Part shown: piece by piece, positions 55,017 through 62,294 of the stretch
Position numbering within the stretch: the first letter of the stretch is position 1
Layout of the letters: each line of letters starts with the position of its first letter
From: Actinopolyspora biskrensis
Lineage (GTDB): Bacteria > Actinomycetota > Actinomycetes > Mycobacteriales > Pseudonocardiaceae
Reading direction: 5' to 3'
DNA: 64,000 nt
Assembly (NCBI RefSeq): GCF_013408175.1
Contig: NZ_JACBYW010000005.1
Location: 310,001-374,000 of the forward strand
Translations under genes and position numbers: made by a program
The notes under the pieces: model-generated
Databases searched by the model: none
What the model saw: the letters and a program-made list of their open reading frames with translations, nothing else
What the model was told of the DNA's origin: nothing

Positions 55017-58000
55017 ATGAGTTCAAGACATCGCTCGGTGCGTGGCAGAGTGCTGAGCGGCATCGCCGTGACAGGCATATCCGCACTGATGATGAGCGTT
55101 CCGGTGGCTTCGCAGGCCGCTGAGCAGCAAGGAGGAGCCGCACCGGTGCCGAGCACCGGTCTGTCCGAACCGGACAGCGCATGGACGCCTCCCGAGAACG
55201 TGAATCGTTCTCCCGAGGGAGGGGTGGCACCCGCCGAACAGTGGGACGCTCCGGGCAAGGAGCGGTCCTCCAAGAGGCGGACCGCTGCCGCGCAGAGCTC
55301 CGCCTCGACGGTGAGTTGCGAATCGGGGCAGGCCACCGGGGTACTGCCGCAGTATCCGATGGAACGGTTCCGGATATCGGACCGAGTCCAGATCGGGGTG
55401 AACACGTTCAACGGCAACATGGTCGCCACCGCCCGGGATCTCACCATCAGGGGAACCGGGCAGAACCTGTCGTTGAATCACGTCTACAACAGCAAGCTCT
55501 CCGGTGGGGGTACCTACGGTTCCGGCTGGAACATCAACGCGGGTGGCGACATCGGGTTGACGTTCGAGGGTGACGACGCGGTGCTGCACGGGGCCTCGGG
55601 CTACTGTGCGACGTTCACCGCGGACGGTTCGGGAGGTTTCGATCCCGCGCCCGGCGTGGACGCCGAACTGGCGCAGCTGTCCGACGGCAGCTACGAACTC
55701 ACCTGGAACGGCTCCAACAAGACCTGGTCGTTCACCGAACAGGGGTGGTTGTCGGCGCAGGCCGATCGCAACGGCAACGCCAACACCTACCGCTACAACG
55801 ACGACGGCACGCTGGCTTCGGTGACCGACTCGCAGGGGCGGGTGACCACCTTCAGTCACGACAGCGGCGGGCGGATCACCGGCATCACGGACCCGACGGG
55901 TACTTCCGCAGGAAAGTACACCTACAACGATGCCGGACGGATGACCACGTTCACCGACCGTGGTGGAAACCGGTATCTGCTGAACTACACCGACTCGGGC
56001 AATCTCTCCCGGCTCACACTGCCGGACTACAGCCAGTACGTCTTCAGCTACAACAGCGCTGACCAAGTGACCGAGGTCCACGAGCCCAACGGGACCACAG
56101 TGGCCGTCACCGAGTTCTCCTACGGTGACCACACGACGACTCAGACCGATCCGAACGGCAACGAGACCGTCTACACCTACGACGAACGCGGTCGCCAGAT
56201 CAAGGCGGTCGACGCGCTGGGCAACGAGCAGTCGAAGACCTGGACGCCCAACAGCGACGTGCAGACCAACACCAACGGGTTGAACAACTCGACCACCTCG
56301 GAGTACGACCGGCTGAACAACCTGGTGGGCACCAAGTTGCCGACCGGGGCCGAAACCACCGTCGGATACGACAGTTCGACTCACCCGCACCTGCCCACCT
56401 CGATCACCGACCCGCAGGAGCGGACGAAAACCCGTTCCTACGACGAGGCGGGCAATCTGACCGAGGTCCGTTCCGCCGATCTCGACAAGACACTGCGGGC
56501 CAACACCTACAACTCCGACGGGACCCTGGCCAAGCAGGTCAACGGCAACGGTGCGGCCACGACGTACTCCTACGACGAGGCGGGCAACCTCACCGAGATC
56601 CAGCAGCCGGGTCCGCTGGGGTCGATCACCTACACCTACGACGCGTTGTCCCGGGTCACCAGCGTCACCGACGGAAACGGCAACACCACCGAGTACTCCT
56701 ACGACAAGCTCGATCGTGTGGTGTCCGTCAGTCACAACGGCACCGTGTCGCAGACGATGAGTTACAACTCTCTCGGTAAGATGACCGCGCGGGAAACCTC
56801 GTCCGCCACGACCACGTTCACGTATCTGCGTGCCGGGCTGATGACGGAGAAGAAGCGTTCCGCCGGTGGTTCGACGGAAACCATCTCGTACGAGTACGAC
56901 CCGGCGGGCAACATGGTCTCGATGACCGACCCGAACGGGGAGACCACGTACTCCTACGACGCGGGTAATCGGCTGATCTCCATGACCGATGCGAGCGGTC
57001 AGACCACCACCTTCGGTTACAACGCCGCAGATCAACGAACCAGCGTCACGTTCCCCGGTGCTGGTAAGCAGACGATGACCTACGACGCAGCCGGTCGTCA
57101 GACGGGGATCACGGTCACCGACACCGACGGGATCACGAAGTTCGACACGAGCTACTCGTACTCCGCACCGGATGGTTCGGACACCACGCTGTTGCAGTAC
57201 CGGAACATCAACGGCACGGGGAACAGCTATGACTACGACGCGCTGCAGCGCATCACTTCCAGCAACTCGGGTGCCGGCTCGTACGGCTACGACACCGCCT
57301 CGAACATCACCAGCGGTCCGAACGGTACGAGCTACACCACCAACGCCGCCGACCAGCTCACGGAGAAGGGAGGCACCAGCTACGACTACGACTCCGCGGG
57401 AAACCTCACCGGCAGCAGTGACGGGGCGAGCTACGAGTACAGCGCTGCCAACCAGCTGACCGGCGCACAGCTACCCTCGGGCAGTATCGACAAGGCGGTT
57501 TACGACACCGCGGACCAGACCACGCCACGTTCGATCACCGAAACCACCGGCGGCAACACGGTGCAGCACGTGTTCACCCACACAGCGATGGGGATCACCA
57601 GTATCACCGACAACGGGCAGCGGACCGGCTACTTCCGCGATCCCGCGGGGAAACTGATCACCAAGACCGGGCCCGACGGCAAGCGTTACAACGCGATCAC
57701 CGATCAGCGTGGCACCGTGCTGGCGCTGCTGGCCGAGGACGGCACCATCGCGGGCAGTTACGAGTACGGCACCTACGGCGAAACCACCGCCACCGGAAAG
57801 GCAGCCGAGGAGAACCCGTTCCGCTACAACGGCTCCTACCAGCTCGACACCGGTGACTACATGTTCGGGCACCGCTACTACGACACCGACACGAAGTGGT
57901 TCACCCAGACCGACCCCAGCAGGCAGGAGTCCAACCTCTACGCCTACGCGGAATGCAACCCGACCAACCTCTCTGATCCGACCGGGCTCAATGCGTGCTC

Positions 58001-58148
58001 GAGAAAATACTTGTACGGTTCAACAGTTATTACTGCAGGGGGTGTTGTAGTGGGCGGTTTGGCTACGGGAGGGGCAGCCTGGGCACTTGGTGGAGTTTTC
58101 GCGGGTGCGAGCCTGATTAACGCTTGGGGTGGTCACTATGAGTGCTGA
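55017..58148 (+). CDS. Secreted RHS/YD-repeat protein with short hydrophobic C-terminal tip (putative polymorphic toxin)
   Basis: A 1043-residue exported protein. A signal peptide (1-34) and a DUF6531-like entry region (about 115-190) are followed by about 25 YD repeats (patterns YDxxGRxxxxxD, e.g. YTYDERGRQIKAVD). The conserved RHS core (DQRGTVLALL, then FRYNGSYQLDTG, FGHRYYDTDTKWFTQTDP, NLYAYAECNPTNLSDPTGL) ends at residue 991. After this the C-terminal 52 residues are a variable tip: two cysteines frame a Gly/Ala/Val-rich stretch that could form one or two membrane helices. DNA for the tip is distinctly AT-richer. RHS shells enclose and deliver such tips. A small membrane protein gene follows 23 bases on. 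Confidence 0.9.
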   Translation: MSSRHRSVRGRVLSGIAVTGISALMMSVPVASQAAEQQGGAAPVPSTGLSEPDSAWTPPENVNRSPEGGVAPAEQWDAPGKERSSKRRTAAAQSSASTVSCESGQATGVLPQYPMERFRISDRVQIGVNTFNGNMVATARDLTIRGTGQNLSLNHVYNSKLSGGGTYGSGWNINAGGDIGLTFEGDDAVLHGASGYCATFTADGSGGFDPAPGVDAELAQLSDGSYELTWNGSNKTWSFTEQGWLSAQADRNGNANTYRYNDDGTLASVTDSQGRVTTFSHDSGGRITGITDPTGTSAGKYTYNDAGRMTTFTDRGGNRYLLNYTDSGNLSRLTLPDYSQYVFSYNSADQVTEVHEPNGTTVAVTEFSYGDHTTTQTDPNGNETVYTYDERGRQIKAVDALGNEQSKTWTPNSDVQTNTNGLNNSTTSEYDRLNNLVGTKLPTGAETTVGYDSSTHPHLPTSITDPQERTKTRSYDEAGNLTEVRSADLDKTLRANTYNSDGTLAKQVNGNGAATTYSYDEAGNLTEIQQPGPLGSITYTYDALSRVTSVTDGNGNTTEYSYDKLDRVVSVSHNGTVSQTMSYNSLGKMTARETSSATTTFTYLRAGLMTEKKRSAGGSTETISYEYDPAGNMVSMTDPNGETTYSYDAGNRLISMTDASGQTTTFGYNAADQRTSVTFPGAGKQTMTYDAAGRQTGITVTDTDGITKFDTSYSYSAPDGSDTTLLQYRNINGTGNSYDYDALQRITSSNSGAGSYGYDTASNITSGPNGTSYTTNAADQLTEKGGTSYDYDSAGNLTGSSDGASYEYSAANQLTGAQLPSGSIDKAVYDTADQTTPRSITETTGGNTVQHVFTHTAMGITSITDNGQRTGYFRDPAGKLITKTGPDGKRYNAITDQRGTVLALLAEDGTIAGSYEYGTYGETTATGKAAEENPFRYNGSYQLDTGDYMFGHRYYDTDTKWFTQTDPSRQESNLYAYAECNPTNLSDPTGLNACSRKYLYGSTVITAGGVVVGGLATGGAAWALGGVFAGASLINAWGGHYEC

Positions 58149-58171
58149 TCTGTATTGGCTTAGGATGATAT

Positions 58172-58363
58172 ATGAAGTCTCGCCGTTACAGCGGAAGAAA
58201 GTTTTACATTTTTTTGCTGGCGACCTCTTTGGTGGGCTTCGCGTTTAATTTATTCATAATTTGGAAATGGCAAAACTTTCTCGTTTCTTGGGTGGTGTTC
58301 GTTGTCTCATTGGGGGTGCTTTTGAGTGCGAAGAATTTACGTGGAGAAAAACGAAACATGTAG
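58172..58363 (+). CDS. Two-helix membrane protein, candidate immunity protein
   Basis: A 63-residue, strongly basic and hydrophobic protein: KFYIFLLATSLVGFAFNLFI and WVVFVVSLGVLLSA are two predicted helices. ATG follows AGGA by six bases, 23 bases after the RHS stop. Base composition is far more AT-rich than the genome. Position right after a polymorphic RHS tip is where the cognate immunity gene is normally found, and a membrane immunity protein suits a membrane-active tip. No family recognised. Confidence 0.65.
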   Translation: MKSRRYSGRKFYIFLLATSLVGFAFNLFIIWKWQNFLVSWVVFVVSLGVLLSAKNLRGEKRNM

Positions 58364-58417
58364 GATTGAAAAATGGTTATCCTCGAGGTGATATGTAGAT
58401 AAATTGACTGCTTGTCG

Positions 58418-58454
58418 GCCGGAGTGGATTGTATCCGCTCCGGCTGTTCGTTTC
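58418..58454 (+). terminator. Terminator after the RHS/immunity module
   Basis: An 11-bp stem with one wobble (58418-58428 with 58434-58444) and loop TTGTA is followed by TGTTCGTTTC. It lies 54 bases after the small gene. Confidence 0.7.
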
Positions 58455-58953
58455 GGTGATTGGTGTGTGTCGAAGGATGTGCAGATGAATTTTCTCTATG
58501 GCGACTCGGGGTGAGTCTGGTAGTAGTTTTGTCGCGTTGATTGATTAAGTAAAGTTTCGTAGAAGGTTAAGGGGATGGCACGTGACAGGGAGATCATGTT
58601 TGATGCATGCGGAATTGATCTTCTGGAGTTTGCGCGTGCTGTGTTGTGCTGTTTTATCGTTGATGTTCTCATGTGTCCTCCATTGATGATATCACAAGAA
58701 ACCTCCTGCAGCGGAGGCAAAGACACGTGTCGTGCGATGACCGATCAGTAGAATTAAGAGAAAAAGAAGAAGTGTTCCAAAGCGCGTAAGCTGTAAACGC
58801 ACCCCGAGTCGCGTAACGCGGTCGACCAAGAAGAAGAGAACAGACGGCAGAGCCGCCTAGGGAAGACGGAAGTACTGTAACGGTGAGTGGTCGGCCGCGT
58901 CGAGCGAAGGGGCCCCACCGGAGGGCGGGACCTCCTTCGTTGTTCGGCGTTGC
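58455..58953. other. AT-rich intergenic stretch with no recognised gene
   Basis: Continues the low-GC patch to about 58850 and then returns to genome average. Short open frames occur but none has a ribosome site with family similarity. It may be the remains of displaced RHS tip or immunity cassettes. The part at 58750-58870 is purine-rich with no visible structure. Confidence 0.45.
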
Positions 58954-59154
58954 TCAGCGGTCGAGTTCGCCGATTTTGACGCTTTCGAGGAAGCCGGTGA
59001 AGCTGGTTCGGTCGAAGACCAACGCGCTGCCGGTCGGGTCCTTGGAGTCCCGCACGGCGGTAACCGCGTCGAGGTAGTCCGCGACCTCGACGCACTGGCC
59101 GCTCGTCCCGCTGTACGAGGACTTCCGCCACGTAGCCGATAACAGGTCGGTCAT
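58954..59154 (-). CDS. DUF397 domain protein
   Basis: A 66-residue protein with the DUF397 signature ATWRKSSYSGTSGQCVEVAD and VRDSKDPTGSALVFDR. Such small proteins are common in Streptomyces and relatives and are encoded next to XRE/DUF5753 regulators, which they may bind or antagonise in antitoxin-like fashion. ATG at 59154 is preceded by AAGGAGAA. The regulator gene lies 22 bases upstream in the same orientation. Confidence 0.92.
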   Translation of the reverse strand: MTDLLSATWRKSSYSGTSGQCVEVADYLDAVTAVRDSKDPTGSALVFDRTSFTGFLESVKIGELDR

Positions 59155-59176
59155 CGTCTGGTTCTCCTTGTCGTTC

Positions 59177-59644
59177 TCACAGGGACGAAGCCAGACTAGC
59201 CACCAGTTCCATCGAGGCGCTCGCGTCGAGTGCGCGGGAGCTCATGAGGTCGAACACGGTCGTGTAGTGCTCGATGTCGGCGGGACGCTCCAACCAGACC
59301 GCTCCTCGCTCGTTCTCCAGGTAAACGGCGTCCGTGTTCAGGTTCTCGGGAAACCTCAGCAGGGAGAACGCGCTCTTGCTGCCCGCGTGTGCTCCGGCGG
59401 CGAATGGCACCACCCGGATGTTGATGTTCGGTTTCTCGGAGAGTTCGATCAGGTGTTCGAGCTGCTCGCGCATCACCTCGGGTCCGCCGACCAGTCTGTG
59501 CAACGCGGCTTCGTCGAGGACGCAGCGTAGCCGAGTGGGGTTTCCCGCACGATTCAAACGTTCCTGGCGTTGTTGGCGAAGTTCCACCTGGTGCTCGACT
59601 CCGGTTCTGGAGGGAGTCGGACACGCTTCGCCGATGAAGGTCAT
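59177..59644 (-). pseudogene. Truncated DUF5753 regulator lacking its helix-turn-helix
   Basis: The 155 visible residues match the C-terminal DUF5753 effector domain (RLRCVLDEAALHRLVGG, NINIRVVPFAAGAH, FDLMSSRALDASAS). Complete members are about 280 residues with an XRE domain first. Here the frame reads DYA just before the ATG, as in the family, then meets a TGA at about 59724, and no helix-turn-helix is found upstream in any frame before the next gene at 59811. The ATG has no ribosome site. It therefore looks like a decapitated remnant, though a short protein could still be made. Confidence 0.7.
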
Positions 59645-59810
59645 GGCGTAGTCGTGAGGTCGACGCCAACAGCGGTTCCCGAAACCTTCGTCAACACCGA
59701 GCTCGTCGCCGGACCCGCGACCGGAGCGACCTCACGCCGAACCTCCGGACATCGCCGAGCCACCCCCGTTGACCGAAGTGGAACGAGCCCGCTCCGGGCA
59801 GCCGGACAAC

Positions 59811-62294
59811 TCAGCTCGCCGGGTAGCGCTCGAACCACTCGGAGGTCTCCGGGGGAGCGGGTCCGAACTCGAGGGTGGCGTCGGTGGCCATTCGCTCCAC
59901 GGTGTCGCGCAGCTCCAGTTCGAGGAACCAGTGCTCGCCCATGGTCTCGGGGGAGGACAGCGCCAGCAGCCCGCCGCTGACGGCCCCGCACGCGGCGCTG
60001 TTGCCGGAGTGGTTGACGGCGGTCCGCAGCCCCTGGGCGAAGTCCCCGTGCGCGCTCAGCGCGGAGTAGAGCCCGATCCCGAGGGCCTCCACCGCCTTGA
60101 ACCCGGATCCGAGGGTGTTCTCGACGTGCTCGGGCGGGACCACACCTGACTCGGCGAGTTCGAGCGCCGCGGTCACACCGGCGCGGACGTTACCGCTTTC
60201 GGGGTGCTCGTCCAGCGTCTCCAGCGCGGCGGTGATCCCCTCGGGGATGCTCGCCCCGCGCAGCAGCCGCGCGACCAGCACCGCCAGCACGCCCGTGCTC
60301 AGCCTGACGTCGCGGTGACCGTGGGTGAGGGAGGCGAGCTCGGCGGCTGCGTGGAAGGTCTCCGCGTCCTCCCGGCTCCACAGCGCGGCGGGCACGGCAC
60401 GCAGCAGCGCGGTGCTGCCGTCCGAGTCGTTGTCCGGGGTCTCCGGCGCACCCATCTCCCGCTGCCCCTTGGCGAAGGCGATCAGCGTGCGCATCATCGT
60501 CCTGCCCGGGGTGCGGGTCTGGAACAGCGCCCGCTGCTCCACGAGCCACCCGTCCGGTTCCGGTGCGGTGGACAGGAACTCGCCCGCCGCGCGCGCCCAG
60601 CTCAGGTGCTGGGTGTGCAGCCAGCGCTGGCAGGCGTGCTGCACCTGCCGGGTCGGAAGCCGCGGGGAGTCGTCGCCCCGCCCGGCCACACCCGCGCGGA
60701 CCACCCCCTCCAGGGTGAACAGCAGCAGCTGGGTCTCGCTGCCGATCCGTCCGGACGGATATCCCGCCGGTACGTACTCCCGGATCCCCTCGGAGCCGTA
60801 GCGGTCCCTGATCTCGCGCCAGGTCTCCGCGGTGACGGCCCCACCCAGGGCCTCCCCGGCGGCGCAGCCGCGCACGCACCGCACGAAGCGGGACTGCCAG
60901 GCCGCACCATCGGGTTCGTGCCCCGGCACCTCTTCCCGCTCCGGCTCCTCCGGACGGACCGGGTGGTGGCCCATCCACTGTGGAGTTCTTTCCGGACGGG
61001 GACCGAACTCGGACGCGGCTTCGGCGGTGACCCGCTCGGCCAGCGGCGCGACGGACGGCGCGCGGTGCGGGCCCAGGTCGAGGAGTTCCGGGCCGTGCAG
61101 CGCTCCGAGGAGCTGGCCGCAGAGCATCGCCGAGGCCACGGTGTCACCGCCGTGGTCGGATGCGACGCGCAGTGCCCCGGTGAAGTCCCCGGGACAGCCG
61201 AGCGCCGCGCGCAGCGCAACCGCCAGCGCCCCCGATCCGGTGCTCCCGTCCGCGGCCGCTTCCAGGTTCCTCCGGCTCGGCACCAGTCCGGCCGGGCGGA
61301 ACCGGGCCAGCCGCACGGCCTCGGCCGGTTGCTCGCACGGCCGGTCGTGCGGCAGCAGCTCCAGGGCAGCGACCGAACTCCTCTCGAGGTCCTCCCCACG
61401 CAGCAGCGCGAACAGCACGGCGGCCAGCACCCCGGCGGGGCGGTACCCGTCCCGTCCTCCGTGGGTGAGCGCGGCGATGCGCTCACCCAGCACGAGGGCC
61501 GAGCGCGCGTCCGCGGCCCACAGCGCGGCAGCCGCGCCGAGCGGAACGGCACCGGCCGAACCGGCGGAATTCACGGGCTCTTCCGGGGAACCGGGGCGCT
61601 CACCCGCCGCGATGCGGGCCAGGGAGGTCAGCGTCACGGGGTCCCCCTCGCCCGCCGTCCGCATCCGCGCGTCGGCGGCCAGCCCCCCTTGCGGTCCGGT
61701 GCTGTCCGGGCGGTGCGGCACGCACTGGTTCCAGGCGATGCCGCGCGAGTACAGCCAACGCTGCTGCCCCCGGAGCGCGGCCGAGACCGGATCGGCCTCC
61801 CCGCGCGTCCTCCGCTCCGCGTGGGCGTGGACCAACGCCTCCACGACGGACAGCACGGCGGTGGTGCGGGCGGTGGCCGCGGTGTTCCCGCGGACGAACG
61901 CCTCCGCGACCGCGCAGCCGTGCAGCATCCCCAGCAGCCGTCCCTGCGCTTCGGGGAACTCCCCGAACAGCCCCGCCCGCGCGGAGTCCGCCCCTTCGGA
62001 GGGGGAGTCCTGCGACCACGTCAGCCGGTGCAGCAACCCGGTGGCCCACAGGGGCCGCGCCGGGTCCGCGACGAGTCCACGCCAGACGGTCAGCAGCCGT
62101 CGCCGCCGCTCGTCCCCGGCCTCGTCCGGAGCCCTTCCGGCACGCAGGACCGCGAGTAATCGTGCTTCGTTCTCGTCCAGGGCGCTCGTCCTCTCGCCTA
62201 CGCCGCCCGCCGTTCCAGCGGTGCTCTGTCGAGGGTGCTCTCGTTCCGCCGTCCGAGCGACAGGTGGGACGGCGTCGTACGACCGGGTCGCCAC
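59811..62294 (-). CDS. Double ADP-ribosylglycohydrolase-like protein with degenerate active sites
   Basis: An 827-residue protein with two tandem domains of the DraG/ARH fold. The second (from about 480) is clear: FVRCVRGCAAGEALGG, RIGSETQLLLFTLEGVVRA and NHSGNSAACGAVSGGLLA line up with the GDALG, ITDDTQMTLFTAEG and NHSGDSDSTGAIxGxLLG motifs of active enzymes. The metal-binding aspartates are replaced (TDD by GSE; GDSDS by GNSAA). The first domain (about 110-440) is more worn but keeps DHGGDTVASAMLCGQLLGAL. It probably binds rather than cleaves ADP-ribose. GTG at 62294 lies 14 bases after the stop of a related gene. Confidence 0.8.
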   Translation of the reverse strand: MATRSYDAVPPVARTAEREHPRQSTAGTAGGVGERTSALDENEARLLAVLRAGRAPDEAGDERRRRLLTVWRGLVADPARPLWATGLLHRLTWSQDSPSEGADSARAGLFGEFPEAQGRLLGMLHGCAVAEAFVRGNTAATARTTAVLSVVEALVHAHAERRTRGEADPVSAALRGQQRWLYSRGIAWNQCVPHRPDSTGPQGGLAADARMRTAGEGDPVTLTSLARIAAGERPGSPEEPVNSAGSAGAVPLGAAAALWAADARSALVLGERIAALTHGGRDGYRPAGVLAAVLFALLRGEDLERSSVAALELLPHDRPCEQPAEAVRLARFRPAGLVPSRRNLEAAADGSTGSGALAVALRAALGCPGDFTGALRVASDHGGDTVASAMLCGQLLGALHGPELLDLGPHRAPSVAPLAERVTAEAASEFGPRPERTPQWMGHHPVRPEEPEREEVPGHEPDGAAWQSRFVRCVRGCAAGEALGGAVTAETWREIRDRYGSEGIREYVPAGYPSGRIGSETQLLLFTLEGVVRAGVAGRGDDSPRLPTRQVQHACQRWLHTQHLSWARAAGEFLSTAPEPDGWLVEQRALFQTRTPGRTMMRTLIAFAKGQREMGAPETPDNDSDGSTALLRAVPAALWSREDAETFHAAAELASLTHGHRDVRLSTGVLAVLVARLLRGASIPEGITAALETLDEHPESGNVRAGVTAALELAESGVVPPEHVENTLGSGFKAVEALGIGLYSALSAHGDFAQGLRTAVNHSGNSAACGAVSGGLLALSSPETMGEHWFLELELRDTVERMATDATLEFGPAPPETSEWFERYPAS

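Follow-up and report, generated by a model that had tools for sequence, protein, structure and literature searches.

A 64,000-nucleotide (nt) window of the 4.95-Mb genome of Actinopolyspora biskrensis (G000 in our samples; contig NZ_JACBYW010000005.1, positions 310,001 to 374,000) contains a two-gene locus in which an RHS (rearrangement hotspot) carrier protein built of YD repeats ends in a short hydrophobic tip and is followed by a small candidate immunity protein. All positions below are those of the window. We consider it probable, at roughly 70%, that this locus encodes a polymorphic toxin with a disulfide-pinned glycine-zipper membrane tip and a tiny membrane immunity protein. Related loci exchange the tip together with its partner at one point of the carrier, the sequence DPTGL at the end of the core. 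A small membrane open reading frame (ORF) is linked to the tip and covaries with it, and the tips follow a two-cysteine rule and a four-residue spacing of glycines.

Tips are exchanged at the end of the core

To characterize variation at the locus, we compared genomes of the genus, family, order, and class, samples that overlap. Cores related to that of the window carrier at E ≤ 1e-30 were present in 5 of the 10 genus genomes, the window genome included. In three of these genomes (G177, G097, and G038), the sequence on either side also matches the window, at 74 to 83% from 50000 to about 52790 and at 67 to 72% from about 59810 on; they therefore carry the same locus. Homology of their cores to that of the window, at 85 to 87% over the final aligned segment, breaks off at 57997, 57989, and 58002, respectively; the codon for Leu991 of DPTGL ends at 57989. 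Past this point, no aligned piece longer than 150 nt was found before 59809 to 59820. In the remaining genome (G134), the upstream gene and the entire core align, and homology ends at 57990. Each of the five loci has a different tip and a different partner. This agrees with the original prediction, which called for a comparison of tip swapping at DPTGL and would have been contradicted by a tip conserved across all homologs. The tip-bearing frames of G177, G097, and G038 have only 301 to 521 codons, which means that they hold a core fragment, a tip, and a partner rather than a full carrier.

The family search covered 327 genomes from 46 genera of what we take to be Pseudonocardiaceae in GTDB; NCBI places Actinopolyspora in Actinopolysporaceae, and the searched family is wider than that. 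The core end was found in 40 genomes, including the window genome, at 57 places. We analyzed 54 of them (53 stretches, one with two places) and left out three (G377 contigs 24 and 34, and G065) where the match does not extend to the tip. Together with one stretch from the order search, these 54 stretches yielded 57 tip ends in 52 loci; two loci, L105 (in-frame stop) and L115, were without a match to the search pattern. Among the 69 pairs with a core similarity above 0.8, identity dropped from 0.83 over the last 20 core residues to 0.31 over the first 10 tip residues, and 54 pairs had unlike tips. The tip is thus swapped at a fixed point on a conserved core, as in RHS polymorphic toxins. Like tips were also found on unlike cores, with partners that are related, in L087/L124 (tip 0.74, core 0.55, partner 0.41) and L114/L117 (tip 0.73, core 0.44, partner 0.59).

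One locus, L127 (G009 contig 22, positions 1 to 2184), contains three tandem short core-tip cassettes, each with its own small membrane ORF, resembling the displaced cassettes at RHS loci. The first is perhaps cut by the contig start.

A small membrane ORF is linked to the tip and covaries with it

We counted small ORFs of 45 to 110 aa with two hydrophobic segments that start between −40 and +250 nt from the stop of the tip, a rule that was fixed once some of these loci had been inspected. Such an ORF followed 39 of the 57 tip ends. The controls gave 470 of 10,800 for random positions and 21 of 511 for the ends of other long ORFs. When each tip family was reduced to one representative, the ORF was present in 18 of 25, with 188 of 4,320 random positions in the same count. 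Under a loose rule (28 to 110 aa, one segment, start up to +200), the numbers rose to 52 of 57 ends and 24 of 25 representatives, versus 549 of 4,320 random positions and 45 of 511 ORF ends. Because the homologs show the same anatomy against both controls, the arrangement in the window is more than chance, and we ruled out a small ORF that arose there by coincidence.

For further comparisons, we assembled 50 partners, 11 of which were chosen by eye where the rule had missed them (among these L122, without a usual start codon). They average 65 aa. Five start at −4 and six at −1, overlaps that are typical of coupled genes. Four partners (L084, L112, L114, and L117) are only 32 to 33 aa long, with a single hydrophobic segment and a basic end, and stand beside tips with cysteines at the ends; the L112 tip is altered in its second half.

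Covariation was assessed on 49 tip-partner rows, or 44 once near-identical tips were removed. In 16 of the 44, the nearest neighbor of the tip was also the nearest neighbor of the partner, compared to a mean of 1.03 and a maximum of 6 in 2,000 permutations. A neighboring gene that covaries with the tip is another property of RHS polymorphic toxins. Conservation of the small ORF, on which the original prediction partly depended, therefore held in kind, position, and covariation with the tip; it did not hold in sequence. In 10 close pairs of loci, the small ORFs differ at both synonymous and nonsynonymous codons, and in 7 of them the tip is better conserved than the partner (in L085/L130, 57/65 identical residues in the partner versus 70/71 in the tip).

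Family scans covered 30 of the 50 partners and returned weak matches to assorted membrane families. Among the matches listed, the best in NCBIfam was 5.9e-05, SLATT_1 was matched by 4 of the 30 partners (best 0.0013), and a putative type VI secretion system (T6SS) effector model was matched by one partner at 0.0017. No immunity family was recognized for these 30 partners among the best 25 of 63 and the best 25 of 46 matching families.

Tips share a pair of cysteines, glycine spacing, and hydrophobicity

Tip statistics exclude 3 of the 57 ends, whose tips fall outside 40 to 110 aa, and so comprise 54 rows with 53 distinct tips; family statistics use 53 rows, with one short-core row dropped, and 25 family representatives. 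Tips were counted from the residue after DPTG, which makes the window tip 53 residues long in these numbers. At least two cysteines are present in 52 of the 53 distinct tips and exactly two in 48, compared to 13.8 expected from the cysteine rate. The same holds for the 25 representatives, with at least two in 24 and exactly two in 20 (6.5 expected for exactly two). Cysteine makes up 0.16% of the last 150 core residues and 2.85% of tips, and only 1 of 6,400 tip-sized core windows had exactly two. The pair lies at both ends in 12 of the 53 tips, the type seen in the window, and 6 to 12 residues apart in mid-tip in 29; the other 12 have different layouts. This prevalence of one tip type with a near-universal cysteine pair among relatives goes beyond what was originally envisaged.

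A four-residue spacing of glycines is far more frequent in tips than in shuffled versions of them (z = 5.7 on the 25 representatives). Spacings of 7 and 8 are also high; those of 1 to 3, 5, and 6 are not. The window tip holds three GxxxG motifs, and such repetition in a hydrophobic helical segment characterizes glycine-zipper toxins. The median grand average of hydropathy (GRAVY) is 0.85 for tips and −0.56 for the core, and 49 of 54 tips exceed 0.3. No column is invariant among the tips; what they have in common is their composition and scattered glycines and cysteines.

At the level of sequence and prediction, the tip is better read as membrane active than as a nuclease, given its hydropathy, its glycine spacing, and the helical hairpin obtained by modeling, in line with the original prediction. 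A nuclease or other enzymatic tip was rejected for the window, where the tip has 52 residues, no family match, and a hydrophobic composition. The best of five models, a single-sequence prediction, places helices at tip residues 7 to 25 and 29 to 46 and a bridge at residues 4 and 51, beside the two cysteines. We also considered whether the tips are class II bacteriocins. Membership is unsupported: no bacteriocin family was among the Pfam matches at E ≤ 0.1 for the 49 of 53 distinct tips that were scanned. The double-glycine class II bacteriocins are presumably those of PF10439. In these 49 tips, no Pfam or NCBIfam toxin family was found beyond a marginal match to geobacillin-26 (0.072, NCBIfam), and models of glycine zippers matched few tips, at most two per model, with a best value of 4.9e-05; the window tip was not among them. 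A profile search of the Protein Data Bank (PDB) with the tip alignment gave a single match, to a cargo protein at 0.064. We do not regard a fold match to microcin E492 (7dyr, TMq 0.64) as evidence, its E value being 8.8.

A few tips depart from this type. Those of L094 and L102, which are related to each other, are charged, not hydrophobic, with no small membrane ORF seen beside them, and look like another toxin type. Together with L131, they have charged C-terminal halves and cysteines 23 residues apart. The L094 tip is followed by a frame resembling a secreted protein, possibly an antidote of another kind. The L126 tip is unlike the others, with 100 residues rich in glycine and serine and six cysteines.

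The carrier is related to known RHS shells and has a possible autocleavage motif

The carrier has 16 RHS-repeat stretches, DUF6531, and an RHS-associated core in Pfam and NCBIfam scans, the YD-repeat shell and core that define RHS polymorphic toxins. A sequence search of solved structures returned Rhs cores, Tse5 (chain 8cp6_B, 3.8e-30), and teneurin-like proteins (9pt5_A, a chain named Teneurin-like protein, 3.2e-30) as relatives; 9pt5_A is presumably the BiTLP chain. In Tse5, DUF6531 forms the N-terminal plug, and the published autocleavage motif is DPXGX18DPXG (PMC10684867; published systems are cited throughout from excerpts of the papers). Both aspartates occur at a fixed spacing in 56 of the 57 homologous ends, in the form DPxx-X17-DPxG, one residue shorter than the published motif. 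In this count, only the first motif and its distance were free to vary, the second being fixed by the search pattern. The N terminus of the carrier has a basic start, a hydrophobic stretch, and small residues ahead of a likely cleavage site, as judged by eye, and many full-length homologs begin with a similar Sec-like segment. Scanned over its full length against Pfam at E ≤ 1, the carrier matched only RHS_repeat, DUF6531, and RHS, with no WapA-type cell-wall-binding N-terminal region found.

Residues 870 to 1025 of the carrier (P0001), at the core end, also match PDB chain 8fjp_A, salivary gland surface protein 1, which we assume to come from a mosquito. The match continues weakly into a hydrophobic stretch past DPxG and probably reflects composition.

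Organization and surroundings of the locus

The features of the locus are listed in Table 1. The original description of a YD-repeat protein with a core running to DPTGL, a 52-residue tip bounded by cysteines (Cys994 and Cys1043 of the carrier), and a 63-residue basic neighbor with two helices was borne out; the neighbor begins 23 nt past the carrier stop and has two hydrophobic segments.

TABLE 1 Features of the RHS locus in the window
Feature	Position	Strand	Basis
YD-repeat (RHS) carrier protein, 1043 aa	55017..58148	+	ATG start to stop; RHS_repeat 8.3e-81, DUF6531 7.1e-08, Rhs_assc_core 4.6e-16
Putative Sec-type signal peptide, about 35 aa	55017..55121	+	judged by eye
DUF6531 domain, residues 128-200	55398..55616	+	profile match
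Core end, Asp966 ... Asp987-Pro-Thr-Gly-Leu991, likely autocleavage motif	57912..57989	+	two Asp at fixed spacing; invariant in 4-sequence alignment
Exchangeable hydrophobic tip, 52 aa, Cys at tip positions 3 and 52	57990..58145	+	
Candidate immunity protein (63 aa) with basic ends and two hydrophobic segments	58172..58363	+	without Pfam or NCBIfam family
Terminator-like hairpin closing the two-gene unit	58416..58446	+	14-pair stem, T-containing tail; consensus match only

GC content falls from 0.64 in the last 300 core bases to 0.55 in the tip and 0.42 in the small ORF, is 0.48 from 58364 to 58880, and returns to 0.65 beyond. The drop that had been pointed out at the tip is thus real in the window. 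It is not general, since in several homologous cassettes the GC content is as high as in the core, and we dropped it as a hallmark.

The AT-rich stretch 3′ of the small ORF (58364 to 58880) has no recognized gene. Five terminator-like hairpins lie between 57900 and 58960, compared to 1.2 expected. A tblastn search of 58364 to 58950 for remnants of older cassettes, using 104 tips and partners, gave 370 matches at E ≤ 5, none of them convincing (best E, 0.021 over 18 residues). A DUF397 gene and a DUF5753 gene occupy 58954 to 59641 and separate the RHS locus from the next shared gene; in the three relatives L151, L152, and L153, no aligned piece longer than 150 nt was found there.

Related cores extend beyond the family

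Related cores were found in 17 of 150 genomes of the order at 1e-15, counting the window genome and others of its family, and in 7 of 246 genomes of the class at 1e-25, counting the window genome. The 21 order and class loci gave 12 tip ends, which are mostly hydrophobic, some of them without cysteine. In an uncontrolled count, 10 of the 12 are followed, within 420 nt, by a frame that has one or more hydrophobic segments. Among plasmids, 34 records contain a related core, 18 of them from Streptomyces.

Discussion

From these observations, we infer how the system might work. The RHS carrier would be exported by Sec, with its YD-repeat shell folding outside the cell, and would cleave itself after DPTGL, freeing the tip. 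The freed tip would be a small helical hairpin whose glycines are spaced as in a glycine zipper and whose end cysteines probably form a closing disulfide, and could insert into the cytoplasmic membrane of a neighbor, leak ions, and depolarize it. In the producer membrane, the 63-aa protein would block insertion or assembly of the tip. Recombination in the core just before DPTGL would replace tip and immunity gene jointly. That Tse5 can do without a cytoplasmic antidote has been explained by encapsulation in the shell (PMC12744356); a disulfide that forms only outside would add to this.

Several results weigh against this interpretation. The first DPxG of the window reads DPSR, and its glycine is missing in 23 of 56 ends. 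The model of the full-length carrier is uninformative, with a predicted local distance difference test (pLDDT) score of 45. For the tip, mean pLDDT is 74 in the best model and 53 to 57 in the other four, a fold search gave 18 matches with a best E of 3.6, and no family matched the window tip at E ≤ 0.1 in Pfam or NCBIfam. Even under the loosest rule, 5 of the 57 ends have no small membrane ORF. No relative of the window partner better than E = 0.02 was found in the 10 genus genomes, and the best other match, at that value, spans 29 residues and lies in the window's own genome. Across all distances, the tip-partner correlation is weak (Mantel ρ = 0.17, reached by 47 of 2,000 permutations; 0.15 when partialed on the core, reached by 94 of 2,000). 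Finally, some like tips have unlike partners: L101/L104 (tip 0.63, partner 0.12), L088/L111 (0.59, 0.10), L101/L116, and L116/L120.

The same data could be read in other ways. As hydrophobic C-terminal segments, the tips resemble anchors and might hold the RHS shell on the producer surface, with the two-segment partner docking them as an anchoring or export factor. We think this unlikely: an anchor would have no need of exchange at DPTGL along with a matched partner, the paired-cysteine rule would not be expected of it, and short core-tip-partner cassettes occur without the full shell that it would hold. Hydrophobic, disulfide-bonded peptides can also be enzyme inhibitors, and membrane immunity would fit a tip that hits a membrane or outside-facing enzyme, such as one of cell-wall synthesis, with no pore being formed. 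Such a target seems improbable, given that the four-residue glycine spacing suggests helix packing within the membrane and that the tips share only composition and scattered residues, with no invariant column.

Covariation and exchange would suit any matched pair, including a ligand and its membrane receptor used for kin discrimination instead of killing, and the lower conservation of most partners relative to their tips would agree with such self-recognition or signaling. Nevertheless, partners of this mean length leave no room for an additional regulatory domain, those with a single segment would be small for a receptor, and RHS and glycine-zipper relatives have been described as membrane toxins (PMC10684867, PMC13018210, PMC12744356), which makes a signaling pair very improbable in our view.

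The toxin proposed here varies a known kind, since membrane-active RHS ends are already known from Tse5 and BiTLP. Tse5/Tsi5 of Pseudomonas aeruginosa combines an RHS shell, a DUF6531 plug, aspartyl autocleavage, a pore-forming C-terminal toxin, and membrane-bound immunity (PMC10684867, PMC12744356); at our locus, the pore and the cleavage are presumed by analogy. It differs in T6SS export from a Gram-negative cell and in a C-terminal fragment of about 16 kDa, compared to the Sec-type signal, 52-aa tip, and cysteine pair described here. BiTLP of Bacillus inaquosorum is a Gram-positive YD-shell whose hydrophobic C terminus permeabilizes Escherichia coli when secreted, in a large teneurin-like architecture; the excerpts of that paper contain no exchange series of tip and immunity gene and no cysteine rule (PMC13018210). 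In Sec export, exchangeable tips, immunity genes, and orphan cassettes, the WapA proteins of Streptococcus suis and B. subtilis are like our locus, where export and immunity are putative. WapA is a far bigger protein (350 kDa in S. suis) that has an NCWB fragment at its N terminus and a sortase partner, and the tips of B. subtilis WapA are tRNases (PMC12704120).

Glycine-zipper toxins with membrane immunity are likewise known on other carriers. EsxX/ExiCD of Staphylococcus aureus has a glycine-zipper tip that depolarizes membranes and membrane-bound immunity against the secreted form, but it uses an LXG carrier, type VII secretion, and two immunity pairs (PMC12744356). CdzC and CdzD of Caulobacter kill as small glycine-zipper peptides, and their immunity protein, CdzI, is a small transmembrane protein; in contrast to our tips, they are free peptides of 86 and 84 aa that leave by type I secretion with no RHS carrier, and CdzI is predicted to have three segments (PMC5380434). 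The ionophore toxins of contact-dependent inhibition (CDI) systems are polymorphic membrane-depolarizing tips with very divergent cognate immunity proteins, yet they are carried by CdiA and have two domains, an entry domain and a five-helix ionophore (PMC11630599). What is new here is that the tips form a class, with a two-cysteine rule and a four-residue recurrence of glycine. Among the matches listed in the open-access literature, outside of which lie subscription papers and preprints, we found no description of this actinomycete tip class, its cysteine rule, or its partners. The toxin table of a 2012 survey, as excerpted, has a single pore-forming tip family, Tox-WTIP, in proteobacteria.

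More tentatively, actinomycete RHS proteins may carry a large unrecognized class of toxins: miniature helical hairpins of about 42 to 100 aa with one disulfide each, end to end or across the turn, in well over a dozen tip families within one bacterial family and with dedicated immunity proteins as short as 32 aa. Because of its disulfide, such a toxin would form only outside the cytoplasm, so that no cytosolic antidote would be needed and membrane immunity would be enough. If true, a lineage of mostly tiny membrane toxins and tiny antidotes would be a natural series of minimal pore-immunity pairs, in which it could be tested how such small proteins reach specificity and whether the disulfide acts as a safety catch.

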